DNA from: an uncultured Sphingomonadaceae bacterium
GTDB lineage: Bacteria; Pseudomonadota; Alphaproteobacteria; Sphingomonadales; Sphingomonadaceae
DNA length: 64,000 bases
Direction: 5' to 3'
NCBI GenBank assembly: GCA_903871605.1
Contig: CAIQHF010000024.1
Location: 62,001 to 126,000, forward strand
A program made the translations under genes and the position numbers. Under the pieces are notes generated by a model, which was not told the DNA's origin, did no database searches, and saw only the letters and a program-made list of their open reading frames with translations. This document shows positions 19,157-39,177 of this stretch, one piece after another. Within the stretch, counting starts at the first letter, position 1; every line of letters starts with the position of its first letter.

Positions 19157-19624
19157 ATGGCGACTCACGACGAACTGTTGGCACCCATGGGCGTCATCGG
19201 AGAGGCTTTCGCATCGGGCAAGACCCAGGCGGAACGTGATGCGGCATGGGAAGCGGCGCTGACCGAAGACGTGGTCTGGGAGGCGCCATTTACCGATCCA
19301 CCGATCGTGGTGTCCGGTCGTCGCGCCGTCGGAAAATTCTTCGACTGGCTGATCGAGAACGTCCCCAATTTCCAGACGGCGCTCGATAACGTCTATTATT
19401 TGGAAGACGGCGGGTCCTACGTCGTCCAGGTCACCGGCGGCGGCCCGACCAAGGACGGCGACGTATACGATCAGCGCTATTTCTCGCTGATCCAGGTGCG
19501 GGACGGCAAGATTTCGTATTTCCGCGAGCACTTCAAGGTGGCCGAGACCTATCGCGCGTTCGGACGCGACAATTTCCACGATTCGATCGATCGAATTCAG
19601 AGCGGCATCCTCAGCGACGCGTAA
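19157..19624 (+). CDS. SnoaL-like / NTF2-fold protein
   Basis: 155 residues; GGAGCGGG precedes the ATG. The sequence shows the cone-shaped NTF2-like fold: helices at the start (LLAPMGVIGEAF), then TEDVVWEAPFTDPPIVVSGR and AVGKFFDWLIENVPNF, and strands with FSLIQVRDGKISYFREHFKV near the end. Members act as cyclases, isomerases, hydrolases or ligand binders, often beside monooxygenases. It lies 46 bases before the Baeyer-Villiger monooxygenase gene, so it may handle its substrate or product. The catalytic residues cannot be assigned from sequence alone. Confidence 0.75.
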   Translation: MATHDELLAPMGVIGEAFASGKTQAERDAAWEAALTEDVVWEAPFTDPPIVVSGRRAVGKFFDWLIENVPNFQTALDNVYYLEDGGSYVVQVTGGGPTKDGDVYDQRYFSLIQVRDGKISYFREHFKVAETYRAFGRDNFHDSIDRIQSGILSDA

Positions 19625-21338: not shown

Positions 21339-21652
21339 TCCTGACGATCTTCTATCCCGCTTCCGGCTGCACTCGTTTCGACGAGGATTATTATGCGCAA
21401 ACGCATATCCCGTTGTTGCGATCGCTGTGGGGCGGGCTGATCGACCATGTCGAGCAGATCAGCTTCCCGCCTGAAGACGGCGGAACGGCGCCGTATCGGA
21501 TGATCACGATCGTGCGCTTCCCCGGCGAGCGGGCGTTCGGCGAGGCGATGGCTCATCCGCGCATCGCCGAGCTTCAGGCCGATGTCGCCGCATTCACGGA
21601 TTGCGTTCCGGACGTCCATGTCGGCCGCGTCGCCGGGACGCGCGGGTCGTGA
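21335..21652 (+). CDS. EthD-domain protein
   Basis: 105 residues from a GTG that overlaps the monooxygenase stop by four bases. The ferredoxin-like EthD fold is indicated by the start MILTIFYPASG followed by YYAQTHIPLLRSLWGGLI, and by FPGERAFGEAMAHPRIAELQ and DVAAFTDCVPDVHVG. EthD-type proteins are small partners of oxygenases and cannot be given a reaction from sequence. The tight coupling suggests equal expression with the monooxygenase. Confidence 0.78.
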   Translation: MILTIFYPASGCTRFDEDYYAQTHIPLLRSLWGGLIDHVEQISFPPEDGGTAPYRMITIVRFPGERAFGEAMAHPRIAELQADVAAFTDCVPDVHVGRVAGTRGS

Positions 21653-21685: not shown

Positions 21686-23107
21686 ATGCAGTTCGACCGA
21701 GACTATGCGATGCTGATCGACGGACGGATCGAAGCCGGGGAGCCGTCGCTCGAAGTGATCAATCCCGCGACCGAGGCGGTGATCGCGACGGTGCCGGATT
21801 GCAGCCGGGAGCAGCTCGACGCGGCGGTCGCGGCGGCACGCGCCGCGTTTCCGGCATGGCGAGCCCTGCCGATCGCCGAGCGCAAGGCGTTCGTCGTCCG
21901 CATCGGCGCCCTGATCACCGAGCACGCGTCAGCTTTGGCTCGCCTGCTGACCGCGGAACAGGGCAAGCCCGTCGCGGACGCCGAGGGGGAGATCGCGGCC
22001 GCTGCCTACTGGTGCCAGGGGATAGCGACCTACGATCTGCCGGTCCACGTCAACGAGGAGACCGAGGAGCGTCGCTCGGTCACGCACTACGTCCCGCTGG
22101 GCGTGGTCGGCGGGATCGTGCCGTGGAATTTCCCGATCCTGCTCGCCATATTCAAGATCGCGCCCGCATTGCTGGCGGGCAATACGATGGTGATCAAGCC
22201 GTCGCCCTTCACCCCGTTGTCGCTGCTCAAGCTCGGCGAACTCCTGGCCGACGAGCTGCCGGCGGGCGTTCTCAACATCGTAGCCGGCGGCGATGCGGTC
22301 GGCCCGTGGATGACCGAGCATCCCGGCATCGACAAGATCAGTTTCACGGGATCGACCCAGACCGGGCGCCGCGTGATGGCGAGCGCCGCCGCCAACCTGA
22401 AGCGGCTCACGTTGGAGTTGGGCGGAAACGACGCCGCGATCGTGCTACCCGACGTCGATGTCGATGCGGTGGCGCAGACGCTATTCTGGGCGGCGTTCGG
22501 CAATAACGGGCAGGTCTGCATCGCCGCCAAGCGCATGTACGTTCATGCCGACGTCTATGATGCCGTGCGCGACGCGCTCGTCGCCTATGCCGCCACCGTC
22601 AAGGTCGGCGACGGTGCGGAGCAGGGCACGCAGGTCGGCCCGATCCAGAACCGTCCACAGTTCGAACGCGTGAAAGCGTTGATCGCCGATGCCAGGGCGA
22701 GCGGCCTCGTCTTCGCGGCCGGTGGCGAGGTGCCGGAGGGCAAGGGCTTCTTCATTCCGCTCAGCATCGTCGACAATCCCCCCGAGGATAGCCGCGTGGT
22801 GCAGGAGGAGGCGTTCGGCCCGGTGCTGCCCCTGATCCGCTTCGACGATATCGACGATGTGATCCGTAGGGCCAATGCCAGCGATTACGGTCTCGCCGGA
22901 TCGGTGTGGACGAACGATCTCGATCGGGCGGCCGCGATCGCCGCACAGCTCGATACGGGCACGGTGTGGGTCAACGAGGTGCAATATCTCACGCCGTTCC
23001 AGCCATTTGGCGGGCACAAGCAGTCGGGTCTCGGCACCGAGAATGGGCTGGACGGCATCCTCGAATATACCAGCCCGCGGACCATCGTGGTGAAGCAGAA
23101 GCCCTGA
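21686..23107 (+). CDS. NAD(P)-dependent aldehyde dehydrogenase
   Basis: 473 residues. The general base Glu244 lies in TLELGGND and the nucleophile Cys278 in NNGQVCIAAKR. The cofactor region has VPWNFPILL and FTGSTQTGRRV, and the C-terminus PFGGHKQSGLGTENG is typical. It oxidises an aldehyde to the acid. In a terpenoid scheme it would be the counterpart of geranial dehydrogenase, acting after the alcohol dehydrogenase at 30011; this is inference from gene context. ATG 21686 is preferred to a TTG 12 bases upstream because of the GAGGTG sequence before it. Next come a hairpin and the NDP-forming CoA ligase gene, whose product would activate the acid. Confidence 0.93.
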   Translation: MQFDRDYAMLIDGRIEAGEPSLEVINPATEAVIATVPDCSREQLDAAVAAARAAFPAWRALPIAERKAFVVRIGALITEHASALARLLTAEQGKPVADAEGEIAAAAYWCQGIATYDLPVHVNEETEERRSVTHYVPLGVVGGIVPWNFPILLAIFKIAPALLAGNTMVIKPSPFTPLSLLKLGELLADELPAGVLNIVAGGDAVGPWMTEHPGIDKISFTGSTQTGRRVMASAAANLKRLTLELGGNDAAIVLPDVDVDAVAQTLFWAAFGNNGQVCIAAKRMYVHADVYDAVRDALVAYAATVKVGDGAEQGTQVGPIQNRPQFERVKALIADARASGLVFAAGGEVPEGKGFFIPLSIVDNPPEDSRVVQEEAFGPVLPLIRFDDIDDVIRRANASDYGLAGSVWTNDLDRAAAIAAQLDTGTVWVNEVQYLTPFQPFGGHKQSGLGTENGLDGILEYTSPRTIVVKQKP

Positions 23108-23188: not shown

Positions 23189-25297
23189 ATGACACTGGTT
23201 ACCGAAAAGCCGGCGCGCACTGGGCTGTCGCGGCTGTTCAACGCGCGCTCGATCGCGCTCGTCGGCGCGACCGAGCGCTCGGTATGGTCGAACACCGCAT
23301 GGGCCAATTGCGGCGCGGTCGGCTTCGGCGGCAGGATCCATCTCGTCAACACGAAGGGCGGCGCCGTCTACGGCCAGAGCGCCGCGACGTCGTGCGCCGC
23401 GATCGGCGAACCGGTGGATGCCGCATTGCTGATGGTGCCGGGCCACGCGCTCGAGGCGGCGCTGGACGATCTGCAGGCGGCCGGCGTGCCGAACGCCATC
23501 ATCCTCTCGTCCGGCTTCGCCGAACTGGGGCATGAGGGCGGCGAGCGACAGCGGCAGCTGGCCGACGGTGCGCGGGCACGAGGCATCCGCTTCATGGGGC
23601 CGAACACGCTGGGTTTCGTCAATCTTTCGGACAAGGTCTCGATCTGGACGAGCGCGCTCCCGGCGGTGTCGAGAGGATCGATCGCGGTCGTCTCGCAGAG
23701 CGGCGCGACCGGCTCCTACATCAGCGCCTTCGCCGCGCAGCAGGGGCTTGGGCTGAGCTTCCTCGCCGCGACCGGCAACGAGGGTGACGTGCGGATCGAC
23801 GACGTGATCGATCATCTCGCCGAGGATGATGCGACCAACTGCATGCTCCTTTTCCTGGAATCGGTGCGCAATGCCGAGGCGCTGGGCCTCGCGGCCGATC
23901 GCGCGCGGGCGGCCGGCAAGCCTATCGTTGCGATCAAGATCGGTACCAGCGAGAATACCGCCAAGGCCGCGCTCGCCCACACCGGATCGCTGGTGGGTGA
24001 CGATCGCGTGTTCGACGCGGCTTGCCTGCGCCACGGGATCATCCGCGCCCGCTCGATCGACGAGGCCGTGGCGACGGTGGGGCTGATGTCCCAGACGCGG
24101 CCGCGCGCCGGCAAGGCGACGCTTGTTTCGATCTCCGGCGGCATCTGCGAGGTCAGCGCCGATCGCAGCGAGGCGGCCGGCGTGCCGCTGCTCGATTTCG
24201 ACGACGGAATGAAGGGCGCGCTCGGCGCGATCCTCGGCGATTTCGGCACGCCGCACAATCCGCTCGACGTGACGGGCGCGGCCATGCTCAAGCCTGAAAT
24301 GTTCAGCCAGTGCATGGCGACGCTCGCCGCGAGCCCGGATGTGGGTCTCTCCATCTGCCTGTTCGACGCGCCCGAGGAGCATGAGACCGGTCTTGTCCGG
24401 ACGATCGCCGAGCAGGTGGCCGAAGGTGCCGCCAAGGGCGACGCGCCGACGATGATGATGAGCGTCACGCCCCGCCCAGTATCGTCCGCGACGCGGTCCT
24501 TCGCCGGTGAGCTTGGCCTGCCCTATATCGGATCCGGGCTCGATGACGGGCTTCGGGCCGTCGCCAATGCGATGGATTGGGTTTCCCGGCAGGGGGCGGA
24601 GCATGCCCCCCGTATCGCGATGGAGGCCGCAAGCGACAGGCGGCCTGGCACGGAGCGCGAGGCGCTGGTCTTCCTTGACGAGCATGGCGTGCCGGTTATC
24701 CCGATCCGTCTCGCCCGCAGTGCCGACGAGGCGGCCGATCTGGCTGCGGCGCTGGCCTGCCCGGTCGTGATGAAGGTGTCGTCGCCCGACATCGCGCACA
24801 AGACCGAGGTCGGCGGCGTCGTCCTGCGGCTCGAAGGCCGCGAAGCCGTGGCGGATGCCTATCGCGCGATGATGGAGCGGATCTCCCGCCTGAAGCCCGA
24901 CGCCGCCATCGAGGGCGCACTGATCGCGCCGATGCGCAGCGAGGGTGTCGAATTGCTCGTCGGCGTCGTGCGGGATTCGCAATGGGGGCCGACCATCGCG
25001 GTCGGCCTCGGCGGGATTTGGGTGGAGTTGCTGAAGGATACCAGCATCCGCCTGCTGCCGGTCGACCGGGCCGACGCGCTCGCCATGCTTTCCGAATTGC
25101 GCGCCGCCAACATATTGGATGGGTTCCGCGGCGCCCCGGCGCTCGATCGCGGTGCCATCGCCGATGCGATCGTCGCGATCGGCAATGCCGCGCTGGCGCT
25201 CGGCCGCGATCTGGTCTCGCTGGAGGTCAATCCGCTGTCGGCACGCGCCGATGGCGTGGAAGCGCTCGACGCGCTGATCGGTTGGGCGGACGCATGA
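23189..25297 (+). CDS. NDP-forming acyl-CoA synthetase (fused alpha and beta parts)
   Basis: 702 residues. Order: CoA-binding domain (about 10-130, FNARSIALVGATERSVW), succinyl-CoA-ligase-like domains (about 145-440) with the phospho-histidine His264 in ALAHTGSLVGDD, then an ATP-grasp domain from about 480 (VFLDEHGVPVIPIRLA; PVVMKVSSPDIAHKTEVGGV; SLEVNPLSAR). This class makes an acyl-CoA with release of ADP and phosphate, reversibly. Members with this fused plan act on acetate, pimelate, aryl acids, feruloyl and other acyl groups. The stop overlaps the start of the crotonase gene by four bases, and a dehydrogenase for aldehydes precedes it, so it probably activates the acid formed there. Confidence 0.9.
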   Translation: MTLVTEKPARTGLSRLFNARSIALVGATERSVWSNTAWANCGAVGFGGRIHLVNTKGGAVYGQSAATSCAAIGEPVDAALLMVPGHALEAALDDLQAAGVPNAIILSSGFAELGHEGGERQRQLADGARARGIRFMGPNTLGFVNLSDKVSIWTSALPAVSRGSIAVVSQSGATGSYISAFAAQQGLGLSFLAATGNEGDVRIDDVIDHLAEDDATNCMLLFLESVRNAEALGLAADRARAAGKPIVAIKIGTSENTAKAALAHTGSLVGDDRVFDAACLRHGIIRARSIDEAVATVGLMSQTRPRAGKATLVSISGGICEVSADRSEAAGVPLLDFDDGMKGALGAILGDFGTPHNPLDVTGAAMLKPEMFSQCMATLAASPDVGLSICLFDAPEEHETGLVRTIAEQVAEGAAKGDAPTMMMSVTPRPVSSATRSFAGELGLPYIGSGLDDGLRAVANAMDWVSRQGAEHAPRIAMEAASDRRPGTEREALVFLDEHGVPVIPIRLARSADEAADLAAALACPVVMKVSSPDIAHKTEVGGVVLRLEGREAVADAYRAMMERISRLKPDAAIEGALIAPMRSEGVELLVGVVRDSQWGPTIAVGLGGIWVELLKDTSIRLLPVDRADALAMLSELRAANILDGFRGAPALDRGAIADAIVAIGNAALALGRDLVSLEVNPLSARADGVEALDALIGWADA

Positions 25298-26094
25298 CGC
25301 AGATGTCCGAGCCCGCGGTCCTTTACGAAACGAGCGGCGCCGGCATGACCCCGCACGTCGCTGTGGTCACGATCAACCGCCCGCACGCGCGCAATGCGAT
25401 CGACGGTGCCGTGGCCAGGGCCCTGGACGACATCGTCAAGCGGACCGAAGCCGATCCCGATATCTGGACAGTGCTGCTAACGAGCGCGGGCGGAAAGGCC
25501 TTCTCCGCCGGTGCCGATCTCAAGGCGGTGGCGGCTGGCGAGGGCGACTCGATCGCGACCCCCGACGGCGGCTTCGCGGGTTTCACCAGCGCGCTGCGCA
25601 GCAAGCCGTGGATCGCGGCGGTGGAAGGCTACGCGCTGGGCGGCGGATGCGAGATCGCGCTGGCCTGTGATCTGATCGTGGCGGCGCGCGATGCCAGCTT
25701 CGGCCTGCCGGAGGTCAGGCGGGGCCTGATCGCAGCGGCCGGCGGCCTCTACCGTCTGCCGCGCGTGCTGCCGCCGAGGCGCGCGCTCGAATTGATCATG
25801 ACCGGTGCGCCGGTCGAGGCGGCGGAGATGCATCGGCTGGGCGTCGTCAGCCGCCTCGCCGAGCCGGGAGATGCGCTGGGCCAGGCGCTTGTGCTCGCCG
25901 CCGGGATCAATGCTAGCGCGCCGCTCGCGGTGCGCGAGAGCCTGGGTATCGCGCGCCGGGCCATCTCGCGCGACGAAGCCGAGATGCAGGCGCTCAGCGA
26001 TGAAGCCATCGCGCGCGTCGCGCAGAGCGAAGATTTCCGAACCGGTGTGCGCGCCTTCGTGAACAAGCAGGCGCCGGAATGGAACGCGCGATGA
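25294..26094 (+). CDS. Enoyl-CoA hydratase (crotonase), both catalytic glutamates present
   Basis: 266 residues from an ATG that overlaps the stop of the ligase gene (ATGA). The oxyanion-hole segments are AFSAGADLKAV and the one around YALGGGCEIALACDLIV. Both glutamates used by hydratases are present (GGGCE and GLPEVRRG), making this the only single-domain crotonase in the window with the full catalytic pair. The end FVNKQAPEWNAR is normal for the family. Hydration of a 2-enoyl-CoA is expected. Its place between a CoA synthetase and a thiolase-like gene suggests it serves the first round of degradation. Confidence 0.9.
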   Translation: MTQMSEPAVLYETSGAGMTPHVAVVTINRPHARNAIDGAVARALDDIVKRTEADPDIWTVLLTSAGGKAFSAGADLKAVAAGEGDSIATPDGGFAGFTSALRSKPWIAAVEGYALGGGCEIALACDLIVAARDASFGLPEVRRGLIAAAGGLYRLPRVLPPRRALELIMTGAPVEAAEMHRLGVVSRLAEPGDALGQALVLAAGINASAPLAVRESLGIARRAISRDEAEMQALSDEAIARVAQSEDFRTGVRAFVNKQAPEWNAR

Positions 26095-27587
26095 CCAGCA
26101 TGCCGGACGACGATCGCACCCCGGTTATCTTCGCGATCGGCGAATGCAGTTTCAGGCCGGCATCGCTCGCGGAAAGCCTCGATCCGGTCGCGCTCATGTC
26201 GCTGGCGATCGATGCTGCCGAAGCGGAGTGCAGCATCGCCTTTGCTGCCGAGGCGGACTCGATCGACGTGGTGAGCCAGTATAGCTGGCAATATCGCGAC
26301 GCCGCACAGGCGCTGTGCCGATACCGTCGGATCGCCCCGCGGCGCGTCGTCTACGGGCAGGCTGGCGGCGAGAGCCCGATCCGGCTGATCCATGAAGCGG
26401 CGCTTCGGATAGCGCAGGGCAAGAGCGGCCTCGCCATCGTCGTCGGCGGTGAGAGCCAGCACAGCGCCACCGCCGCAGAACGCAGCGGCACGGCGCTGCC
26501 CTGGCCGGCGATGGAACCGGAGGCGGCGCCAAGGATCGGGGCGGAGGACATCCTCCTGCCAATGTCGATCCGCTACGGTCTCGTTCAGCCCGTCATCCTC
26601 TATCCCTTCTACGAGAATGCGGCGACGGCGGCATGGGGACAGACGCCGCGCGAGGCGCTCGACGAATCCGGCCGGCTCTGGAGCCATTATTCGCAGATCG
26701 CAGCCGACAATCCCTGGTCCTGGCAGAAACAGCCGCTGTCGGCCGAGGCGATCGTCACGCCGACGGCCGACAATCGCATCATCGCCTGGCCCTATACCAA
26801 GCGGATGGTCGCCAATCCCTCCGTCAACCAGTCCGCCGCGATCGGGATCGCCAGTCTGGCGTGGGCGAAGGCGCACGGCGTGCCGGAAAGCCGGATCGTC
26901 CATATCGGTGATGGCGTGGCGGCGATCGAACCGCGCGACATCCTCCAGCGGGACGATTATCGCCGCAGCCCCGCGCAGGATGTCGTGTTGGAGGAGATCG
27001 TGCGCCTCGCCGGTCCGCGCGGCTTCGCCCATCAGGAACTCTACAGCTGCTTCCCGATCGTGCCCAAGCTCGCGATGCGCCGGCTCGGCCTGTCGCCTTC
27101 CGATGCGGCGACTGTAACGGGCGGTCTGCCATATTTCGGCGCGCCGTTGAACAATTACATGACGCACGCGGCCTGCGCGATGGTGCGGTGCCTTCGTGAC
27201 GACGGGACGCGTGGGCTTCTCTACGGGCAGGGCGAGTTCCTGACCAAGCATCATGCTCTATTGTTTTCGGCGGACCGTTTCGAGACGGTGCTGCAACCTG
27301 ATTACGACAGGACAGCCATGGCGGATGCGCGGCGCGGGCCTTGCCCGGTTCTGATCGAGACGGCGGACGGCGGCGAGATCGAGACATTCACGGTCGTGCA
27401 TGGGCGAGACGGCGCGCCGTCGCTCGGCATCGTGATCGTGCGGACGCCATTGGGCGAGCGGACGTTGACCCATGTGCCGGCGGCCGATCGCTCGACGATC
27501 GATCAACTGGAAGCGCTGGATGAGTCGCCGATCGGGCTGTCCGGTCGCATAACGCGGCAAGACGAGATACAGATATTCAGCCTGTAG
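26091..27587 (+). CDS. Thiolase-like protein (TLP1-type) lacking the nucleophilic cysteine
   Basis: 498 residues; ATG overlaps the hydratase stop (ATGA). It has a thiolase fold (VVYGQAGGESPIRLIHEAA; IAQGKSGLAIVVGGESQHS; FAHQELYSCFPIVPKLA; GGLPYFGAPLNNYMTHA). There is also an extra C-terminal domain of about 90 residues (TVVHGRDGAPSLGIVIVRTP) like the one added in thiolase-like proteins type 1. Where true thiolases have the CxS nucleophile this protein reads GQAGGES, so normal thiolysis is unlikely unless another cysteine takes over. It may bind acyl-CoA, catalyse an aldol or retro-aldol reaction, or act with another subunit. It is the last tightly coupled gene of the run that starts at 19157. 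Confidence 0.8.
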   Translation: MTSMPDDDRTPVIFAIGECSFRPASLAESLDPVALMSLAIDAAEAECSIAFAAEADSIDVVSQYSWQYRDAAQALCRYRRIAPRRVVYGQAGGESPIRLIHEAALRIAQGKSGLAIVVGGESQHSATAAERSGTALPWPAMEPEAAPRIGAEDILLPMSIRYGLVQPVILYPFYENAATAAWGQTPREALDESGRLWSHYSQIAADNPWSWQKQPLSAEAIVTPTADNRIIAWPYTKRMVANPSVNQSAAIGIASLAWAKAHGVPESRIVHIGDGVAAIEPRDILQRDDYRRSPAQDVVLEEIVRLAGPRGFAHQELYSCFPIVPKLAMRRLGLSPSDAATVTGGLPYFGAPLNNYMTHAACAMVRCLRDDGTRGLLYGQGEFLTKHHALLFSADRFETVLQPDYDRTAMADARRGPCPVLIETADGGEIETFTVVHGRDGAPSLGIVIVRTPLGERTLTHVPAADRSTIDQLEALDESPIGLSGRITRQDEIQIFSL

Positions 27588-28020: not shown

Positions 28021-29943
28021 ATGCAGACCGCCTATGCCGAGGGGACGATTACCCCCCAATTCGCCAAGCCGCCCCGGGTCGGCCCGGTCACCAGATCGCG
28101 CCAGCGGCGCACGTTGATCGGCTATGCGCTCGTCTGCGTGTTGGGCGTGCTTCCCTATCTGGTCGGCGCATCGCCGGCGTTGCAGGCGGCGGGGTTCGGG
28201 CTGCTCTTCCCAGGGGCGGGCTTTTTGTGCGCTGGTGGTTTCGCGCTGCTGCTATTTCCGTTGACCCTCATTCTCTTCGGAATGAGCCTGATCGCCTGGT
28301 TCGGATCGGGCATGATCATCGCGCCGACGATCCTGTGGTTCGGCACCGCCGCGCTGGCGGCGGCGCTGACCGGTGAAGCGATCACGGTGTATGGGCCGCT
28401 CTGCTCGGTTGCGCTGGTGGCGGGTACGGCGATCTTCCTCCAGCGGCGCACGATGAAGCGTTCGGCGGCGGATCTCACGATGCTGGCGGCGCGCAAGCAA
28501 TATCTGCCGGCCGCGATCGAACGCGTGCGGGCCGAAGCCGCGCCTCCCGCCGAGCCTGCCGAGCGCGAGATGACGCCCGCCGAGCTCGGCGGCATCCGCT
28601 ACATGCTGGATCGCGCGCTGCAGCCGATCGACGGCTTCAGCGGCTTCGACAAGATCGACCAGTTTCAGACGTCGGCGCTGCGCTATCAGATCAACCTGCT
28701 GGGCTATGGCCTCGGCCTATCGCAGTGCAACGTTACTCCCAATTTCCACGGCTATGTCTCGCAGGCGCAGCGCAACCTCGTCGAGAAGTACCTGCTCAAG
28801 AAGGTGTGGGACTATTGGATCTATGAGACGGCATGGGGCCATTTCAACTTCACCAATTTCGATCCGGCCGGCCGCGACAACATCATGCTGACCGGCTGGC
28901 TCGGTCTGCAGGCCAATCTGTACATGGCCAATACCGGAGACATGCGCTACGCGCAGCCCGGCAGCCTGCCATTCCGGCTCAACAAGACCAAGACCTTCGA
29001 ACATAGCGTCCATTCGCTGGCGAAATCGGTCCACGAGAATTTCGAGGTCTCGCCGTTCGGCCTCTATGCCTGCGAACCCAACTGGATCTATCCGATCTGC
29101 AATTTCTACGGGATGACGTCGCTCGTCATTCACGATCGCCTGCACGGCACTGATTACGTTCAGCCGACACTCGCGCCGTGGCTGAACAAACTCGATCAGG
29201 AATTTACCGATCAGAAGGGCTCCGTCATCGGGCTGCGGTCCGACCTGACCGGCATCGAGGTGCCGTTCCCGACGGGCGAGATCGCGTTCGCCACCATGAC
29301 CAACAGCTTCGCGCCCGATCGTGCCGAGCGCATGTGGGCGATCGCGCGTACCGAGATCGGATCGTTGCTCACCGATGGCCTCAACAAGGCCTCGCGTCTG
29401 CCGCTTCCCGGCGCCGGCATCGATACCGGCAATTACCGGCGAGGCCATGTCGGTGCCTATGGCGGCGTCATCCAGACCGCGCACGAATTCGGCGATGCCG
29501 AGTTCGCCCGGGTGGTTCAGGATACGCTCGACGAATATGGAGCGCTCGACACGACGGGCGGAGTCTATCGCTTCGCCAAGGGTTCGAATCAGGCGAACGT
29601 CACCGCGGCCTACGCCCGTTTCTGGCGGACCGGCGATTATCGCAACGCGATCACCAAGGGGCCGCCGTCGAGCGCGTTCACCGGCCCGCTGCTCACCGAT
29701 GCGCGCTATCCCGAGGTTCTCGTAGCGGCGGCGACCAGCAAGGGCGAGGATCTGCGGCTGGTGCTGTATCCCGGCGGCGCAGGCGGCCGCGAGACGCTAC
29801 GGATCGAGCGGCTCCATCCCGGCCGATCCTACACCGTGACGGGTGCGACGGAGCCGGGCATCGTGGCGCTGCCCGATGGCACGGCGAAGCTCTCGGTCGA
29901 TCTGTCCGGTCGAACCGAAGTGCTGATCCGCCCTGCGTCCTGA
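28021..29943 (+). CDS. Membrane-anchored linalool isomerase / linalool dehydratase-isomerase family protein
   Basis: 640 residues. The first 170 contain four to five membrane segments (IGYALVCVLGVLPYLVG, GAGFLCAGGFALLLFPL, FGMSLIAWFGSGMIIAP, LCSVALVAGTAIFL). A soluble domain of the linalool dehydratase/isomerase (Ldi) family follows from about 195. Hallmarks: Cys351 and Cys360 nine residues apart in YACEPNWIYPIC, followed by the conserved DRLHGTDY; and upstream GRDNIMLTGWLGL. In the Castellaniella enzyme the paired cysteines form the active site, with the motif CEPDNYFVQC in the same spacing. A membrane-anchored relative of about this length, linalool isomerase, is known from Thauera linaloolentis. 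Expected reaction: isomerisation of a tertiary allylic alcohol (linalool type) to a primary one (geraniol type). A zinc alcohol dehydrogenase gene follows after 67 bases and would take the product. Substrates such as nerolidol remain possible. Confidence 0.85.
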   Translation: MQTAYAEGTITPQFAKPPRVGPVTRSRQRRTLIGYALVCVLGVLPYLVGASPALQAAGFGLLFPGAGFLCAGGFALLLFPLTLILFGMSLIAWFGSGMIIAPTILWFGTAALAAALTGEAITVYGPLCSVALVAGTAIFLQRRTMKRSAADLTMLAARKQYLPAAIERVRAEAAPPAEPAEREMTPAELGGIRYMLDRALQPIDGFSGFDKIDQFQTSALRYQINLLGYGLGLSQCNVTPNFHGYVSQAQRNLVEKYLLKKVWDYWIYETAWGHFNFTNFDPAGRDNIMLTGWLGLQANLYMANTGDMRYAQPGSLPFRLNKTKTFEHSVHSLAKSVHENFEVSPFGLYACEPNWIYPICNFYGMTSLVIHDRLHGTDYVQPTLAPWLNKLDQEFTDQKGSVIGLRSDLTGIEVPFPTGEIAFATMTNSFAPDRAERMWAIARTEIGSLLTDGLNKASRLPLPGAGIDTGNYRRGHVGAYGGVIQTAHEFGDAEFARVVQDTLDEYGALDTTGGVYRFAKGSNQANVTAAYARFWRTGDYRNAITKGPPSSAFTGPLLTDARYPEVLVAAATSKGEDLRLVLYPGGAGGRETLRIERLHPGRSYTVTGATEPGIVALPDGTAKLSVDLSGRTEVLIRPAS

Positions 29944-29978: not shown

Positions 29979-30010
29979 ATATGGCCACGTTCATCGCATC
30001 AGGAGAGATC

Positions 30011-31117
30011 ATGGATATCATCGCAGCGGTCGCCGAGGGCGCCGGCGCCGCCTTCTCGCTCGAGCATCTCCAGCTTGACGAGCCCCGGCCCGACGAGGTC
30101 CTCGTCCGTATCGCCGCCGTCGGCCTGTGCCATACCGACATCACCTGCCGCGATCATGGTGTCGGCAGCGTCTTTCCGGCAGTGCTCGGCCATGAGGGCG
30201 CGGGCGTGGTCGAAAAGGTCGGCAGCGCGGTCAGCAAGGTGCGACCCGGCGATCGCGTCGCGCTGACCTTCCGGTCGTGCGGACAGTGCCGCAAATGCAC
30301 GACCGGCAATCCGGCCTATTGCGAGACGATGCCGCTGCTCAATTATATCGGGCGGCGATCGGACGGGACGAGCGCGCTCCGGCGCGACGGCGCGCCGATC
30401 GGCAGCAACTTCTTCGGCCAGTCCTCGTTCGCGAGCCACGCGCTCGCCTACGAGACCAATCTCGTGATCGTACCGGACGGCATTCCGCTGTCCGTCGCGG
30501 CGCCGCTGGGATGCGGCGTGCAGACGGGTGCGGGCGCGGTGATGCGGTCGCTGGCCTGCGAGCCGGGGTCGTCGATCGTCGTCATCGGGGGCGGCACGGT
30601 CGGCCTCAGCTCGGTGATGGCGGCGAAGGTCCGCGAATGCGCGGCCATCATCGTCGTCGAGCCGGTCGAGCAGCGGCGCGCGCTGGCGCTCGAGATCGGG
30701 GCGACCGAGGCGGTCGATCCGAACGGCACCGATGTCGCCGCTGCCATCCGCGCGATCGTTCCGGCGGGCGTGGACTATGTCGTCGATACGACAGGGCGGC
30801 CCGATATCCTGGCCGCGTCGCTGGGCTATCTGGGGAGCCGCGGTGCGCTTGGCCTGGTGGGCGTGTCGGCGCAGCCCGACGCGCAGCTGGCGCTAGCGCT
30901 GGGCGGCTTCATCACCGCGGGCCATCGCGTGATCGGCATCATCGAGGGAGACAGCGAGCCGGACGCGTTCATTCCCGAACTCATAGACCTGTATCGGGCC
31001 GGGCGCTTTCCGTTCGATCGGCTGATCCGCACCTACCCGTTCGATAGGATCAACGAGGCAATAAGGGATCAGCATGATGGCCAGTGCATCAAGCCGGTCC
31101 TTCTTCTTGCCGACTGA
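30011..31117 (+). CDS. Zinc-dependent alcohol dehydrogenase (MDR), GeoA/benzyl-alcohol type
   Basis: 368 residues; AGGAGAG lies four bases before the ATG. The catalytic zinc ligands are in GLCHTDITCRD and GHEGAGVVE. The structural zinc is held by the four cysteines in CGQCRKCTTGNPAYC. The NAD-binding fold has VIGGGTVGLS. It belongs with aryl- and allyl-alcohol dehydrogenases such as benzyl alcohol and geraniol dehydrogenase, which oxidise primary allylic alcohols to aldehydes. Directly downstream of the Ldi-family gene it would convert a geraniol-type alcohol to the aldehyde, which the dehydrogenase at 21686 could oxidise further (inference from context). Confidence 0.9.
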   Translation: MDIIAAVAEGAGAAFSLEHLQLDEPRPDEVLVRIAAVGLCHTDITCRDHGVGSVFPAVLGHEGAGVVEKVGSAVSKVRPGDRVALTFRSCGQCRKCTTGNPAYCETMPLLNYIGRRSDGTSALRRDGAPIGSNFFGQSSFASHALAYETNLVIVPDGIPLSVAAPLGCGVQTGAGAVMRSLACEPGSSIVVIGGGTVGLSSVMAAKVRECAAIIVVEPVEQRRALALEIGATEAVDPNGTDVAAAIRAIVPAGVDYVVDTTGRPDILAASLGYLGSRGALGLVGVSAQPDAQLALALGGFITAGHRVIGIIEGDSEPDAFIPELIDLYRAGRFPFDRLIRTYPFDRINEAIRDQHDGQCIKPVLLLAD

Positions 31118-31253: not shown

Positions 31254-33599
31254 ATGAGATCGCATATGCGCAGGTCGCTGCTGGCCGGTTGCGCCACGCT
31301 CGTTGCAATGATGGCGGTGGCGCCCGCCTGGTCCCAGGCCGCCGCGCAGGTTCCGGCCTCCGTCCCGGCCGAGCCCGCGACGCAGACTGCAGCGCCCGCC
31401 ACATCCGAAATGGCGGCCCCGCCGGCGGCGGAACCGATCGGCGACATCGTCGTGACCGCGCAGCGCCGTTCCGAATCTATCATGAAGGTGCCGATCGCGA
31501 TCACCGCGCTCAGCAACGCGACGCTCACTCAGCAGGGCATCACGCAGACCAGCAACCTCAGCGGCGCGGTGCCGTCGCTGCAGGTCAACAGCCCTTACGG
31601 CGACACCCAGCCCAACTTCACCATCCGCGGCATCGGCGTCGGCAACGAATATACGGCGAACCAGGCGTCGCCCGTCGGCATCTATGTCGACGACGCCTAT
31701 CTCGCCGCACGTGCCGATCACGGCATGCAGATATTCGATCTGCAGCGGGTGGAGGTGCTGCGCGGGCCGCAGGGCACGCTCTACGGTCGCAACACGACCG
31801 GCGGCGCGATCAACTTCATCTCGGTGAAACCGTCGCTGTCCGGCACCAGTGGCTACGGCCAGATCGGCTACGGCGATTATAATTCCTTCTCGGCGCAGGG
31901 CGCGTTCGAGACGACGCTGAAGGACGATGTCGCTGGCGTCCGTTTCGCGGTAAACTACGCGAAGGCCGACGGCTATGTGAAGAATCTGTATCCGGGCGAG
32001 CCGGACGCCAACTCCACGGATACGATCTCCGGTCGCGCGATCATCCGCGTGAAGCCGGCCAGCAATCTGGACATCACGCTCAAATTCACCGGCAGTCATG
32101 CCAACCCCACCCAGGCGGCCGTGATCGACAAGGGCCTCGGCCCGGACGGCACCAACCTCGTCCAGAATTATTCGCGCGAGGAGCGCGGGTTGGGCTTCTG
32201 GGAGGTCGAGCAGCCTCGGCTCGGCCATAGCCCGACGACGGCTTACGGCACGCAGCTGACGATGGCCTATACGCTGAACGACGCCTTCACGCTCACGTCG
32301 ATGACGTCTTACGATTATGTGAAGCAGACGCTCTCGCAGGAAGGCTCCGGCACGCGACCGGGCAATTTCCAGCAGCTGATCGACACCAATTACGGCAACA
32401 CGTTCAACATGGTGAACCAGGAGCTGCGGCTGGCCTATTCGCACGGCAACACCAATGCTCAGGGTGGCCTCTATTTCGGCTATGATCAGGATCACAACCA
32501 CAGCGACGCCTGGCTTTTCGACGGCGCGCTGATGCTGGATTACCAGTATCGCCAGATCCGCAAATCCTACGCCGCCTTCGGGCAGGTCGATCAGAAGTTC
32601 GGCGATCATATCGGGATCACCGCCGGCCTTCGTTACACGATGGATCGTTCGGAATTCAAAGACTTCTACGCCGACGCCGCCGATTCTTCCCGCTACACCG
32701 GCCAGCGCGACTTCTCGATCTTTGACGATCCGGCCACAGCGACATTCCTGCACGGTTCCTACGTGAACGGCGCGATCGTCCCCGAGGCGCCCGTCCGGCT
32801 CAGCACTAACGCTCTGACAGGCCGCGCGGCGATCAACTACACGTTCGACGGCGGCGGCCTGCTCTACGCGAGCTACAACCGCGGCTATCGCGCGGGCGCG
32901 TTCTGCGGCGGCTGCGTGACCACTCCGACGGAAGAGATCGCCAAGCCCGAAACCGTGGACGCGTTCGAGGTCGGTGCAAAGGGACATCTCTTCAACAACC
33001 TGCTGACGGTCTCGACCTCGGCCTTCTGGATGAACTATCGCAATCAGCAGCTCGACGAGATCGACGGCGTCGATACGCATCTGCGGAACGCGCCGAAATC
33101 GCGCATCCGCGGCATCGAGTTCGAGGGCACTGGCCGGATCTCGCATGATTTCCGCGCCAAGCTGCAGGTCAGCTATCTCGATGCCGAATATCGCAAGCTC
33201 GTTCTCAATTCCGGCACGTTCGGACCGCTCGATCTCAAGGGCAACACGCAACCCTTCGCCCCGAAGCTTACGGTCAATGCCGGCCTCGACTGGGACATCG
33301 CGCATATCGGCGACGGTATCCTCAACTTCGCGCCGACGGTCATTTATACGAGCAAGATATATTTCAGCCCGTATAACGATGCCGGCGGCAACGGTAATCT
33401 GAATCAGGGCAAGAACGCCAAGGTCAACGCGCAACTGTCGTGGACGGGCGGGCCGTATACGGTTCGCCTGTGGGTCAACAACCTCTTCAATCGCAAGACC
33501 TACGTCTATGGTCTCGATCTGCGATCGGCCTTCGGCTTCGACTATCTGGTGCCGGGCGCCCCCCGGATGTTCGGCGGTTCGGTGCGTTACGCGTTCTGA
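31254..33599 (+). CDS. TonB-dependent receptor of the catabolic island
   Basis: 781 residues; GGGGAGGATAGAAG precedes the ATG. Signal peptide to about residue 28, a proline/alanine-rich spacer, TonB box region DIVVTAQRRSESIMKVPIAI, plug signature VEVLRGPQGTLYGRNTTGGAIN, and a barrel ending RMFGGSVRYAF. It lacks an STN domain, so it is a plain transporter. This subgroup is common in sphingomonads for bulky or hydrophobic carbon sources. Its promoter carries the same inverted repeat as the degradation genes, and an esterase gene follows after 38 bases. It therefore probably imports the substrate, or an ester of it, degraded by the neighbouring enzymes. The substrate is not visible from sequence. 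Confidence 0.92.
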   Translation: MRSHMRRSLLAGCATLVAMMAVAPAWSQAAAQVPASVPAEPATQTAAPATSEMAAPPAAEPIGDIVVTAQRRSESIMKVPIAITALSNATLTQQGITQTSNLSGAVPSLQVNSPYGDTQPNFTIRGIGVGNEYTANQASPVGIYVDDAYLAARADHGMQIFDLQRVEVLRGPQGTLYGRNTTGGAINFISVKPSLSGTSGYGQIGYGDYNSFSAQGAFETTLKDDVAGVRFAVNYAKADGYVKNLYPGEPDANSTDTISGRAIIRVKPASNLDITLKFTGSHANPTQAAVIDKGLGPDGTNLVQNYSREERGLGFWEVEQPRLGHSPTTAYGTQLTMAYTLNDAFTLTSMTSYDYVKQTLSQEGSGTRPGNFQQLIDTNYGNTFNMVNQELRLAYSHGNTNAQGGLYFGYDQDHNHSDAWLFDGALMLDYQYRQIRKSYAAFGQVDQKFGDHIGITAGLRYTMDRSEFKDFYADAADSSRYTGQRDFSIFDDPATATFLHGSYVNGAIVPEAPVRLSTNALTGRAAINYTFDGGGLLYASYNRGYRAGAFCGGCVTTPTEEIAKPETVDAFEVGAKGHLFNNLLTVSTSAFWMNYRNQQLDEIDGVDTHLRNAPKSRIRGIEFEGTGRISHDFRAKLQVSYLDAEYRKLVLNSGTFGPLDLKGNTQPFAPKLTVNAGLDWDIAHIGDGILNFAPTVIYTSKIYFSPYNDAGGNGNLNQGKNAKVNAQLSWTGGPYTVRLWVNNLFNRKTYVYGLDLRSAFGFDYLVPGAPRMFGGSVRYAF

Positions 33600-33637: not shown

Positions 33638-34606
33638 ATGACGATCGACAGACAGCTTGACCCGGAAATGGCGCCGTTGTTCGCGATGCTCGGGCTTGCC
33701 GATCGACCGCTGTTCGATCTGGCCGATTTGGATGCGGCGCGCGCGACGATGCGGCACCTGGCCCAGGCGGGCCTGGACGCCGCGCCTGCGAGAGACGGTA
33801 TCGAGACGGTCGAGCGGATCGTGCCGGGCGGTCGTCCGGACGAGTGGGTACGGCTCCGCATCACCCGCCCGACGGACGGGGGTTCGGCAATGCCCGCATT
33901 GCTGTGGTTCCACGGCGGCGGCATGCTGCTTGGCAGCGCGGCGGATGACGATCCGCTGGCCGCACGTCTCGCCGCCACGATCGGCTGCGCGGTCGTGGCG
34001 GTCGAGTATCGGCTCGCTCCGGAACATCCTTTCCCCGCGGCGCTGGACGATGGTCACGCCGCCTATGGCTGGCTCGCCGAGCACGCGACGCAGGAAGGAA
34101 TCGCGCCAGATCGGATCGCGATCGGCGGCTTCAGCGCCGGGGCGGGGCTGGCGGCGTCGGTGGCGCTCCGCCTGCGCGACGGCGGATCGCCGTCCCCGCT
34201 GTTCCTGAGCCTCACGGCACCGATGCTCGACGATCGGCAGGACAGCCCGTCCAGCCGCGAGACATGCGCCATGGGCGTTTGGGACAGGGCCGCCAATATC
34301 GCCGCCTGGAACGCCTATCTGGGCCCGAAGGACACGGCCGAAGCGCCCTATGCCGTGCCGGCGCGCGCGCTCGATCTGTCCCGTCTGCCGCCAACGTTCA
34401 TGGCGATCGGCGAGATCGACCTGTTTCGCGACGAGGCCATGGCGTTCGTGCAGCGGCTGGTCGCTGCAGGCGTGCCAACCGAATTCCATCTTTATCCCGG
34501 CGCCTGCCATGGCTTTGACGGCCTCAACCCCGAGGCGTCCGTCAGCCGATCCTTTTCGGCAAGCTGGTTGAGCTATCTGGAGCGGATGTTCGCGCGCGGC
34601 GCATAG
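33638..34606 (+). CDS. Alpha/beta hydrolase, hormone-sensitive-lipase type esterase
   Basis: 322 residues from ATG 33638. The HSL-family oxyanion motif HGGG lies in LLWFHGGGMLLGS, the nucleophile serine in GGFSAGAGLA, the acid in GEIDLFRDEA and the histidine in ACHGFDG, so the triad is complete. There is no signal peptide, so it acts in the cytoplasm. These enzymes hydrolyse short acyl esters and lactone-like compounds. It follows the TonB receptor gene directly. In the proposed pathway it could split the ester or lactone made by the Baeyer-Villiger monooxygenase (inference). Confidence 0.9.
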   Translation: MTIDRQLDPEMAPLFAMLGLADRPLFDLADLDAARATMRHLAQAGLDAAPARDGIETVERIVPGGRPDEWVRLRITRPTDGGSAMPALLWFHGGGMLLGSAADDDPLAARLAATIGCAVVAVEYRLAPEHPFPAALDDGHAAYGWLAEHATQEGIAPDRIAIGGFSAGAGLAASVALRLRDGGSPSPLFLSLTAPMLDDRQDSPSSRETCAMGVWDRAANIAAWNAYLGPKDTAEAPYAVPARALDLSRLPPTFMAIGEIDLFRDEAMAFVQRLVAAGVPTEFHLYPGACHGFDGLNPEASVSRSFSASWLSYLERMFARGA

Positions 34607-34622: not shown

Positions 34623-35606
34623 TCAGCCGTGCACGCCCCCCTTGACGAAATCGCGGTTGCGCGCGGCGAACCGCTCGGCTGTGCGCCATAACTGCATTGT
34701 CGCCTTGTTGGCGGTGACGTGGCCGCGCAGCAAAGCGAGTTCGGTGAACATGTCGATGCCCTCGATCGCGTGATAGCTGTTATCGGGATCGGGACCAGCC
34801 GGCCGGAACCAGCCCACCGAGACAACCGGCACCCGGCGTTCGCGGCCATAACGCTGGAGCCCGATCTCGTGCGCTTCCATCGGCACGTCGATGATCGCGC
34901 CCGCACCCCTCAGCGTTTCGACGATCGGGTTCGTGAACGCGCTGCCATGGCGGGGATCGAGCATGCCGATTACCTGGCCATCGAACGCACTCAAGGGGAT
35001 TTCGCCATGCTGCGCGAGGGGGTGCTCGTTGGGGACCGCCATCACGACGGGGCGTCGCGCCAGCGTGATCCTCGGCAGGTCGTCTGGAATGATGATCTCC
35101 GACGTGTCGGCCTGCACCTGCTCGGCGGCGAAATGCGAACGATCCACCACATAGCCGATCAGCAGGGCCAGATCGATGAGGTGGTTGTCGAGCTGGTCGA
35201 TCAGCTGCTGCTTGAAGGCATAGTTGATCGCGATCGAGATGCCCGGGCACTCCACCTCGAACTGGCGGAAGAGGTTCTCCCGCTCAAAGATGCCGGCCGT
35301 GTAGAAGGGGGTACCCATGCGGGACAGGCTGCGATTGCGCGTGTTCAGCCCGCTGAGCACCTTCTGGAATTCCTTCTGCGCCTCGACCACCTGAAGCGCG
35401 GCCGGCAGGATCGCCTGGCCGAATTCCGACAATTCAACCTTGCGCGTGGTACGGATGAAGAGATCTTCGCCGATGAGATGTTCCAGCCGGCGGATCTGCG
35501 CGGAAAGCGTGGGCTGCGTCATGTTCAGCAGGGAGGCCGCGACGCTGAAGTTCAATTTCTCCGCGAGCGTGACGAAGCACTGCATCGCGCGGATTTCCAC
35601 TTGCAT
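34623..35606 (-). CDS. LysR-family transcriptional regulator
   Basis: 327 residues. The ATG at 35606 starts MQVEIRAMQCF, the usual position before the HTH (NFSVAASLLNMTQPTLSAQI); longer in-frame extensions are arginine-rich and unlikely. A substrate-binding domain follows (FEVECPGISIAINYAFKQQL; VVMAVPNEHPLAQHGEIPLS). It converges with the esterase gene (17-base gap) and points away from the TetR gene. Its role in the island is unknown; the target sequence of a LysR protein (T-N11-A) would differ from the 7-2-7 element. Confidence 0.88.
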   Translation of the reverse strand: MQVEIRAMQCFVTLAEKLNFSVAASLLNMTQPTLSAQIRRLEHLIGEDLFIRTTRKVELSEFGQAILPAALQVVEAQKEFQKVLSGLNTRNRSLSRMGTPFYTAGIFERENLFRQFEVECPGISIAINYAFKQQLIDQLDNHLIDLALLIGYVVDRSHFAAEQVQADTSEIIIPDDLPRITLARRPVVMAVPNEHPLAQHGEIPLSAFDGQVIGMLDPRHGSAFTNPIVETLRGAGAIIDVPMEAHEIGLQRYGRERRVPVVSVGWFRPAGPDPDNSYHAIEGIDMFTELALLRGHVTANKATMQLWRTAERFAARNRDFVKGGVHG

Positions 35607-36540: not shown

Positions 36541-37716
36541 CTAGAGCGTGCGCGCTATCAGGATCTTCATAATCTCGTTGGTGCCGCCGTAAATCCGATT
36601 GATCCGCGCATCCTTGTAGGCCTGCGCGATCGGATATTCGTTCATGTAGCCATAGCCACCGAACAGCTGGAGGCATTCGTCCACGATCTTGCAGTGAAGG
36701 TCTGTCACCCAATATTTGGCCATGGATGCTGTCGGACTGTCGAGTTCGCCCTTCAGATGGCGCTCGACGCAATGATCGACGAAGACGCGCGCGACGGTGG
36801 CCTCCGTCTTGCACTCGGCGAGTTTGAACTGGGTGTTCTGGAAATCGAGGATCGCCTTCCCGAAGGCGCGGCGCTGCTTCACATAGTCGATCGTCAGCGC
36901 CAGCGCATATTCGATTGCCGCCATCGCCTGCACGGCAAGGATCAGCCGCTCCTGCGGGAGTTTCTGCATAAGCTGTACGAAACCCTCGCCGGCGCTCGCG
37001 CCGAGCAGGTTGGCGGTCGGCACGCGTACGTCGTTGAAGAACAGTTCCGACGTATCGGAACTGTCGCGCCCCATCTTGTCGAGGTTGCGGCCGCGCTCGA
37101 AGCCCTCGGCGTCCTCGGTCTCCAGCATGATCAGCGAGGTGCCCCTGGCGCCGAGGCTCGGATCGGTCTTGGCGACCACGACGATCAGATTGGCATTCTG
37201 GCCGTTGGTGATGAAGGTCTTGGAGCCGTTAAGGACATAGTGGTTGCCGTCCAGCCGCGCCGAGGTCTTGATCGCCTGGAGATCCGATCCCGTGCCCGGT
37301 TCGGTCATCGCGATCGCGGTGATGATCTCGCCCGAGACGATTCGCGGGAGCCAGCGCTGCTTCTGCTCCTCCGAGCCGTAAGCCTCGATATAGGGGGCGA
37401 CGATCGCGTTGTGGAGCGCAACGTCCCATCCTTCGATGCCGCGTCGGCCGATCTGCTCCATCAGGATCACTTCATGGCGGAAATCGCCGCCCGCGCCACC
37501 ATAGGCCTCGGGGATCGACAGTCCCAAAATCCCGTCGCGGCCGGCCCGCTCCCAGAAGCGGCGCGGGACGATGCCCTCGTCGCGCCAGCCTTGCACGGTT
37601 GCCGGTGCAGCATGCTGATCGAGGAAGGCGCCGACGCTGTTCTCGAAAAGGAGGATTTCCTCTTCGGCGAGAAAAGCGGGGCGCGGCACGCCCAGGACGC
37701 TTTCTACGACACCCAT
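36541..37716 (-). CDS. Acyl-CoA dehydrogenase, LCAD-like
   Basis: 391 residues. The ATG at 37716 is preferred to the longer frame because it gives the normal short lead (MGVVESVLGVPRPAFLAEEE). FAD-binding and substrate segments: AIAMTEPGTGSDLQAIKTSA, NGSKTFITNGQNANLIVVVA, YVKQRRAFGKAILDFQNTQF. At the C-terminal position where MCAD carries its catalytic glutamate this protein has IYGGTNEIMKIL, as in long-chain and isovaleryl-type enzymes. The base is then expected to be the glutamate in LPQERL, which is present. It introduces the 2,3 double bond in an acyl-CoA, possibly a branched one. A 7-2-7 element lies upstream in its leader. Confidence 0.92.
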   Translation of the reverse strand: MGVVESVLGVPRPAFLAEEEILLFENSVGAFLDQHAAPATVQGWRDEGIVPRRFWERAGRDGILGLSIPEAYGGAGGDFRHEVILMEQIGRRGIEGWDVALHNAIVAPYIEAYGSEEQKQRWLPRIVSGEIITAIAMTEPGTGSDLQAIKTSARLDGNHYVLNGSKTFITNGQNANLIVVVAKTDPSLGARGTSLIMLETEDAEGFERGRNLDKMGRDSSDTSELFFNDVRVPTANLLGASAGEGFVQLMQKLPQERLILAVQAMAAIEYALALTIDYVKQRRAFGKAILDFQNTQFKLAECKTEATVARVFVDHCVERHLKGELDSPTASMAKYWVTDLHCKIVDECLQLFGGYGYMNEYPIAQAYKDARINRIYGGTNEIMKILIARTL

Positions 37717-37873
37717 ATCATACTCCGTTGCTGGCGGGCGCCTTCGCCCGGCGTGGTCCCCAATTCGATCGCAAGCGCTTCTCGCGCAGCCGTTCAAACC
37801 AGGCACCGGCGGTGTGAAAGCGCGTAATCAAATCGGATCCGATCGCACCGATCACGAAGGCAGGATCCAATCT

Positions 37874-37889
37874 TTAATCGACCGATTAA
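37874..37889. promoter_or_regulatory. 7-2-7 operator-like element, perfect palindrome
   Basis: TTAATCG-AC-CGATTAA: both 7-base arms pair perfectly, the best copy in the window. It sits between two acyl-CoA dehydrogenase genes on the minus strand, 157 bases before the ATG of the downstream one, so it probably controls that gene. Confidence 0.65.
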
Positions 37890-37932
37890 CCGTTGTCGGG
37901 AATGTCACGAATGTCAAGCCGGGAGCCATGTC

Positions 37933-39120: not shown

Positions 39121-39177
39121 TTTTCTCTCCCGGTCGATTGCGGTTGAGCCACATGGATCGATATGCCACTACGTATC

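Follow-up and report, generated by a model that had tools for sequence, protein, structure and literature searches.

What does a protein of the linalool dehydratase/isomerase (Ldi) family do among the catabolic genes of a sphingomonad? The question was raised by a 64,000-nucleotide stretch of contig CAIQHF010000024.1 (positions 62,001 to 126,000) from an uncultured Sphingomonadaceae bacterium, assembly GCA_903871605.1; the whole of this stretch is called the window below. It encodes, at 28021-29943, a 640-residue protein which an earlier note, made from the sequence alone, had described as a membrane-anchored Ldi-family protein that would start the use of a tertiary terpene alcohol. The answer proposed here, for and against which the arguments seem to us about equally strong, is a membrane-bound allylic-alcohol isomerase feeding a retro-aldol/methyl-ketone route encoded by the same operon. 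That this route amounts to an undescribed pathway which needs O2 but no carboxylase and serves isoprenoid alcohols with a 3-methyl branch, parts of it recurring in actinobacteria, is a tentative suggestion, possible rather than probable. The evidence consists of the family, fold and conserved residues of the protein, the gene order around it, searches of the host genome for AtuA and HMG-CoA lyase that found neither, and the reappearance of some of the module's genes in a second phylum.

The open reading frame (ORF), on the + strand, begins with ATG and is free of internal stops. PF18566 (Ldi) was the single Pfam domain, covering residues 221-523 and profile positions 1-317 of 318 (E 1.9e-82; 277.8 bits against a curated cut-off of 26.1), and an NCBIfam search of the protein gave zero matches. 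A chance frame was ruled out by the PF18566 match, by synteny and by the rarity of PF18566 among the genomes scanned. Comparison with the PDB using phmmer returned 8 distinct sequences, all of them Ldi of Castellaniella defragrans (best E 8e-14), and a profile alignment to this enzyme extended over 343 columns with a probability of 99.4. Relatives of the protein are encoded on 126 stretches of public named genomes, 80 of which were kept for locus comparison. Three of these loci (L071, L092 and L122) were dropped because of a stop or shifted frame in the match range, and the resulting alignment, A2, has 55 rows, one for the window protein and 54 from among the 77 other loci. An AlphaFold2 model built from A2 (mean pLDDT 92.5, pTM 0.92) contains four long N-terminal helices, 22-47, 73-96, 101-116 and 125-172, predicted to be transmembrane (TM), then an all-alpha domain forming an (alpha/alpha)6 barrel of the Ldi type, and an extra C-terminal beta domain outside the Ldi match. 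VIA-align placed the Ldi structure 5i3t on top (Z 34.7, 333 residues, 2.6 A, 22% identity), followed by glycoside hydrolase family 76 (GH76) and epimerase entries with Z 20.7 and lower, and Ldi was also the top rank in Foldseek. The hydropathy maxima fall between residues 32 and 139, and the grand average of hydropathy is +0.77 for residues 1-172 and -0.28 for residues 173-640. At least three N-terminal hydrophobic segments were counted in 48 of the 55 A2 rows and 0-2 in the other 7, using a simple hydropathy rule and with some match ranges starting late.

To our knowledge, one membrane-anchored relative has been characterised, the linalool isomerase (Lis) of Thauera linaloolentis. In PMC4791888 this enzyme (ENO87364, EC 5.4.4.4, a class in which two enzymes were counted) is described as having four predicted N-terminal TM helices, a barrel predicted to be cytosolic, and similarity to Ldi confined to its C-terminal part. 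Compared by description, Lis and the window protein are alike in their length of about 640 amino acids, their four N-terminal TM helices and their C-terminal Ldi-like domain; they differ in isoelectric point, which is 6.06 for Lis and was computed at 8.35 for the window protein (69.5 kDa). On these comparisons the window protein is assigned to the Ldi/Lis family, as a membrane-anchored protein built like Lis.

Cys351 and Cys360 of the window protein sit in the motif CEPNWIYPIC, and DRLHGTDY occupies residues 372-379. C351, E352, P353, C360, N361 and M289 are invariant in all 55 rows, and the C351-C360 spacing of 9 equals that of the cysteines C170 and C179 of Castellaniella Ldi (PMC6600392). 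The latter enzyme, also named LinD (5i3t, 5hlr, 5g1u), shares with the window protein the barrel fold, the Cys-x8-Cys pattern in the CEP motif and the conserved Met, found at M289 in the NIM motif of the window protein, which differs from it in carrying the additional beta domain. The active-site residues of LinD are listed as H128, Y44, D38, C179 and C170 in PMC12455561. In the His128 column the window protein has W293, and the 55 rows have W (29), F (18), Y (8) and His (0). Asp38 faces a gap in the profile alignment, with D197 (Asp in 51/55 rows) near but out of register, and for Tyr44 no clear sequence partner was seen in that alignment. C. defragrans Ldi is described as periplasmic, with a capping disulfide C48-C101 (PMC6600392), whereas the window protein is membrane-anchored and the only cysteines of its barrel are 236, 351 and 360. 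Since a single Cys precedes C351, there is no counterpart pair for the disulfide; a barrel in the cytosol, the location predicted for Lis, agrees with this and is the most likely one for the window protein. Judged from the alignments, the catalytic cysteines are retained, the remainder of the LinD-type site appears altered, and membership of the LinD type fails at His128 and at the capping disulfide. The aromatic residue replacing His128 could stabilise an allylic cation. The Ldi-family membership, the N-terminal membrane segments and the paired cysteines at Ldi spacing claimed by the earlier note were confirmed, as was its catabolic setting, an operon with alcohol and aldehyde dehydrogenases beside the Ldi gene; loss of the other active-site residues, named by the earlier note as something that would refute its reading, is seen at His128, and Asp38 and Tyr44 could not be matched with clarity.

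That operon runs on the + strand from the gene of a SnoaL-like protein at 19187 to that of an Abhydrolase_3 esterase ending at 34606, in the order given in Table 1, and is followed by a LysR regulator gene on the - strand. The gene set 19187-35606 is syntenic in Aquisediminimonas sediminicola (L045), with 60-78% identity, and the zinc-dependent alcohol dehydrogenase (Zn-ADH) gene begins 38 bases past the end of the Ldi gene. Gene starts other than that of the Ldi ORF were taken from our own simple codon-usage caller, the score of which is no independent evidence because it was trained on the window genes, the Ldi gene included.

The gene just upstream of Ldi, 26079, encodes a thiolase-like protein, TLP1, which matched TLP1 of M. 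smegmatis (4egv) with E 5.6e-44. It has YSCF in place of NEAF, lacks the nucleophilic Cys and possesses the TLP1_add_C domain; an ordinary thiolase was rejected as its identity for lack of the nucleophilic Cys. M. smegmatis TLP1, in which Cys89 is replaced by Gly and NEAF by YSCF, is reported to be devoid of thiolase activity and of unknown function (PMC3406046). In the retro-aldolase CtSal, Tyr302 and Cys304 of YDCY are described as catalytic, with Gly at the nucleophile position, and the same mechanism is suggested for a trypanosome thiolase-like protein (PMC12329534). Among the best TLP1 loci, the window included, YSCF is kept in 30/30, and in six columns around the nucleophile site, placed from the 4egv alignment, Cys occurs in none of the 30, one of which is gapped. 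Because of these shared residues TLP1 may act as a retro-aldolase, an analogy supported by its pairing with a hydratase. Such pairs are described for the steroid side-chain systems Shy-Sal and ChsH1-ChsH2-Ltp2, where the partner of the hydratase has a thiolase fold without the nucleophilic Cys, its YDxF/Y motif supplying Tyr (in Sal also Cys) (PMC12329534, PMC11321319); those systems have MaoC and DUF35 domains, whereas the window has a crotonase-type hydratase and a TLP1 with its own C-terminal beta-barrel domain. No proposal of TLP1 as an aldolase was found in searches limited to open-licence papers, and no word starting with TLP occurs in the main text of PMC12329534. The hydratase gene adjoins TLP1 in the window, in L045, L166 and L167, and in 15 loci around other TLP1 genes (L163-L177) it was adjacent in only these last 2 and a few kb off in 3 (L174, L176, L177). 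In Pseudonocardia halophobica (L109:12127-14499) TLP1 and an enoyl-CoA hydratase are fused in one protein of 790 residues, encoded about 275 bases from the Ldi gene, with aldehyde dehydrogenase (ALDH) and Zn-ADH genes in the same stretch; L110 has the same match pattern as L109 and was not counted as independent.

Near the other end of the operon lies the gene of a Baeyer-Villiger monooxygenase (BVMO), 19671. Type I BVMOs are recognised by the fingerprint FxGxxxHxxxW between two Rossmann motifs, and the window enzyme has FEGPVYHTSHW at residue 167, between GxGxxG at 23 and 193. It matched phenylacetone monooxygenase 1w4x with E 5.5e-181. Phenylacetone and steroid monooxygenases, which act on methyl ketones, are its nearest solved relatives, and cyclohexanone monooxygenases were also matched. 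For 50 of the 80 loci, largely A2 rows, BVMO genes were counted within the stretches examined, and tblastn placed one near Ldi in 8 of the 50 (weakest E 5e-46). The expected number was 1.3 loci, based on 363 hits at E 1e-40 in the 50 genomes, which gives a Poisson P of 6e-5 for at least 8, observed and expected counts being from different programs and genome sizes being rounded. The independent events are fewer because L070/L073 and L067/L089 are mutual near relatives and L045 is near the window; after allowing for kinship, the Poisson P for at least 5 was 0.01. Identity to the window BVMO was 66% in L045, 50-51% in L070 and L073, 38% in L069 and 27-32% in L059, L067, L089 and L105. On a Rhodococcus opacus plasmid, genes for a 50% identical BVMO, Abhydrolase_3, Zn-ADH and ALDH run divergently beside the Ldi gene.

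From this gene set we infer each reaction, its direction and its substrate as follows, this being the simplest account in which the neighbouring genes have a part. The substrate would be taken up by the TonB receptor (31308), and the Ldi protein would most likely convert R-C(OH)(CH3)-CH=CH2 to R-C(CH3)=CH-CH2OH, moving the hydroxyl from the tertiary to the primary position, with the reduced Cys351/Cys360 pair as acid/base and W293 at the place of His128. The primary allylic alcohol would be oxidised to the aldehyde by the Zn-ADH and to the acid by the ALDH, and the ADP-forming coenzyme A (CoA) ligase would produce the acyl-CoA. Hydration of the 3-methyl-2-enoyl-CoA by the enoyl-CoA hydratase would be followed by a retro-aldol cleavage, in which TLP1, via Tyr322/Cys324, would split the 3-hydroxy-3-methylacyl-CoA into a methyl ketone and acetyl-CoA; the BVMO would turn the ketone into an acetate ester, to be hydrolysed by the Abhydrolase_3 esterase. 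The SnoaL-like and EthD proteins stand outside these proposed steps. The TonB receptor, the extra beta-oxidation blocks of the window and the MPAB/Lcp-type genes beside other family members suggest a longer isoprenoid as substrate, and nerolidol, geranyllinalool, isophytol or labdane-type alcohols are at least as likely as linalool. The only pointer to an aerobic host would be the BVMO gene, of an O2-dependent enzyme type.

Several observations weigh against this route, among them the change at His128 and the failure to match Asp38 and Tyr44. At 42 of the 50 Ldi loci no BVMO was found in the stretch examined, and therefore the link concerns a part of the family only; the number of hits shows BVMO genes to be common, and at the threshold used none was found in the 15 loci centred on other TLP1 genes. 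TLP1 relatives are common as well (144 of 298 genomes at E 1e-40). Locus L029 has ADH, ALDH and ligase genes with no TLP1 or BVMO within the stretch examined. In the L109 stretch an HMGL-like gene could supply a different lyase, CoA-transferase genes are present too, and the R. opacus Abhydrolase_3 is annotated as two coding-sequence pieces.

Of the other explanations, the one that survives best, although we consider it unlikely, is that BVMO and esterase cut the ring ketone of a cyclic terpenoid such as a labdane, the Ldi protein with ADH and ALDH shortening only its side chain. The cyclohexanone monooxygenases among the BVMO matches are in line with this, and the additional beta-oxidation blocks, like the TonB receptors, hint that the substrate is bulky; however, the nearest solved BVMOs are methyl-ketone enzymes, and TLP1 with the hydratase would yield a methyl ketone. 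Next, and also unlikely, comes an alkenol dehydratase or hydratase that makes or hydrates a terminal terpenoid diene while the flanking genes serve another end of the substrate. Family membership alone does not separate an isomerase from a dehydratase, and C. defragrans Ldi is reported to perform both reactions and to accept many alpha-methyl allyl alcohols (PMC12455561, PMC6600392). Lis, on the other hand, is described as differing from Ldi in dehydratase activity (PMC4791888), and a Zn-ADH gene so close behind the Ldi gene fits a primary-alcohol product.

Third in order, and quite unlikely, is a plain linalool isomerase whose product geraniol enters the classical Atu/Liu pathway, as in Thauera linaloolentis. 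The build of the protein agrees with it (640 against 644 amino acids, four TM helices, a barrel predicted to be cytosolic), and the Atu pathway would handle the same type of 3-methyl-branched enoyl-CoA as the route proposed for the window, but by means of geranyl-CoA carboxylase and AtuA (PMC4847356). In the Thauera denitrifier, lis is described as lying downstream of atuCFE (PMC4847356), whereas the island in the window has BVMO, TLP1 and esterase genes and no carboxylase, of the Atu type or other, was seen among its domain matches. Searches with the AtuA profile (PF07287) were negative for the host genome, for both entries of the Aquisediminimonas genome and for the genome that carries C. 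defragrans Ldi, against 37 of 200 phylum genomes, some matched weakly, in the positive control. As AtuA, a protein of the Atu pathway into which linalool feeds in Thauera, gave no match, linalool itself is not indicated. No 3-hydroxy-3-methylglutaryl-CoA (HMG-CoA) lyase was found in the host genome, since its single PF00682 match was leuA, the 2-isopropylmalate synthase. The carboxyltransferase profile PF01039 gave four matches in the genome, two of them short; one near a methylmalonyl-CoA mutase was taken for a propionyl-CoA carboxylase. Another, at C36, is paired with a biotin carboxylase and has an acyl-CoA dehydrogenase as a further neighbour. This pair could be a methylcrotonyl- or geranyl-CoA carboxylase; it lends support to the Atu/Liu explanation, tells against a carboxylase-free route and is the main loose end of the latter. 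Least likely of all is a repurposing of the membrane-anchored clade, the loss of His128 marking a change to different chemistry, with an isoprenoid or lipid as substrate and no connection to allylic alcohols, which is favoured by the aromatic residue in all 55 rows, the extra beta domain, the separation of the clade from C. defragrans Ldi and from shorter proteins in the tree, and the MPAB/Lcp-type protein adjoining membrane-anchored Ldi in ten loci, but opposed by the invariance of the Cys pair, CEP and N361 and by alcohol and aldehyde dehydrogenase genes near Ldi in several unrelated loci.

If the retro-aldol/methyl-ketone route is correct, it would explain how the beta-methyl block is bypassed in a bacterium without an AtuA or HMG-CoA lyase match, it would give a first function to the TLP1 family, whose structure was solved in 2012 with no known role, and it would make new catalysts available for converting allylic alcohols and methyl ketones of the isoprenoid type.

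The earlier note had treated an Ldi outside denitrifying betaproteobacteria as exceptional. This was overstated and was rejected, as the 126 stretches and the 80 kept loci come from many bacterial groups, with Mycobacterium, Nocardia, Nocardioides, Pseudonocardia, Solimonas, Hydrocarboniphaga, Parvibaculum, Novosphingobium and Sphingobium among the genera kept. Many of these taxa, such as Mycobacterium, Nocardia, Solimonas and Novosphingobium, are aerobic. The novelty lies in the gene context, Ldi together with Zn-ADH, ALDH, CoA ligase, enoyl-CoA hydratase, TLP1, BVMO and esterase, and not in the occurrence of the family. Within the host's family 18 of 397 genomes had PF18566, against 3 of 398 in a draw from the phylum, the host genome being counted each time, and the 14 control genomes gave no match. 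It was also missing from the 9 other genomes of the same genus in the family set, which makes the distribution of the island patchy. The family search was checked on 399 genomes drawn around a Methylotenera metagenome-assembled genome (MAG); 3 were positive, namely the centre genome, one with a protein 100% identical to C. defragrans Ldi, and a weak one. No paper on this Ldi subgroup was found in searches limited to open-licence papers, and the passages of PMC10386936 on myrcene-converting isolates have no word on Ldi in sphingomonads.

A tree of 70 rows was computed, and four duplicate loci (L026, L028, L036 and L044) were left out of the neighbour clustering. A group of 61 rows, including all A2 rows, stood apart from 8 shorter, putatively soluble proteins and from C. 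defragrans Ldi, with a support of 94/97, slightly below the mark for firm support; the exact place of C. defragrans Ldi is unsure because of its very long branch. The membrane-anchored clade is found in Pseudomonadota and Actinomycetota and also in MAGs assigned to Myxococcota and Chloroflexota. Relatives that share the membrane anchor and the altered active site thus occur across several phyla, and because of this spread and of the many aerobic taxa, breakdown of isoprenoids may often begin with chemistry of the Ldi type. The Ldi proteins of the window and of Aquisediminimonas are sisters (100/100). A second membrane-anchored Ldi gene of the host genome, at C43:22456-23361, is 33% identical to the window copy and groups in another subclade with Novosphingobium and Sphingobium, which is neighboured by Pseudonocardia L109 and R. 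opacus L179 (98/93). Its locus (C43, 12900-32800) has a TonB receptor gene upstream of the Ldi copy and includes 76% and 70% relatives of the window acyl-CoA dehydrogenase 37933 and APH-type gene 40133. Two 393-residue ORFs, in L019 and L023, match PF18566 less strongly (E about 2e-22 and 3e-22) and form a divergent subgroup; a search for the CEP-Cys motif found it in neither.

Ldi-family genes annotated as hypothetical were also seen on plasmids of R. opacus, Variovorax, R. erythropolis BG43 and Allorhizobium (L179-L182), that of BG43 near genes for ALDH, ADH, an AMP-binding ligase and a cytochrome P450; the stretch examined in the record of the N. resinovorum plasmid pSA1 bears no annotated features. 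In ten loci, of gammaproteobacteria such as Solimonas (L086, L090, L098, L099, L119, L100) and of actinobacteria (L081, L092, L095, L103), the Ldi gene adjoins that of a 257-300 residue protein of one cluster, which is of the MPAB/Lcp type (rubber-oxygenase family) in the two members tested by Pfam (L081, L098). In L086, L090, L098, L099 and L119 the Ldi gene and this neighbour have a few bases in common.

Table 1. Genes and gene blocks of the window around the Ldi gene, with evidence
Feature	Position	Strand	Evidence
Upstream beta-oxidation block: hydratase/3-hydroxyacyl-CoA dehydrogenase fusion, enoyl-CoA hydratase, AMP-forming acyl-CoA ligase, thiolase	13295..19021	+	
SnoaL_2-like small protein	19187..19624	+	68% identity in L045
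Type I BVMO	19671..21338	+	Fingerprint, structure matches
EthD-domain small protein	21335..21652	+	60% identity in L045
ALDH (PF00171)	21686..23107	+	Pfam; start by gene caller; 78% in Aquisediminimonas
ADP-forming (ATP-grasp) acyl-CoA synthetase	23189..25297	+	Profile matches
Enoyl-CoA hydratase	25294..26094	+	Pfam; start by gene caller
TLP1 thiolase-like protein, Y322-S-C324-F, without nucleophilic Cys	26079..27587	+	Pfam, 4egv match, motif
Ldi-family protein, 640 aa; predicted TM part ~22-172, barrel 186-545, beta domain 557-638	28021..29943	+	Pfam, AlphaFold2, alignment
Zn-ADH	29981..31117	+	Nearest solved 5tnx, then benzyl alcohol dehydrogenase 1f8f
TonB-dependent receptor	31308..33599	+	Pfam
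Abhydrolase_3 esterase, HGGG and GFSAG motifs	33638..34606	+	Pfam, motifs
LysR-type regulator, operon end	34623..35606	-	Domain match
Second acyl-CoA block: two acyl-CoA dehydrogenases, hydratases, APH-type kinase, short-chain dehydrogenase/reductase (SDR), NMO/FabK-like reductase	36541..44687	.	

Several genes of the second acyl-CoA block have close relatives that adjoin the other Ldi subgroup in other sphingomonads. Further downstream, at 47426-61218, the window contains genes for two TonB receptors, a major facilitator superfamily transporter, a tryptophan-halogenase-type protein, a GH3 glycosidase and a peroxidase-family protein.

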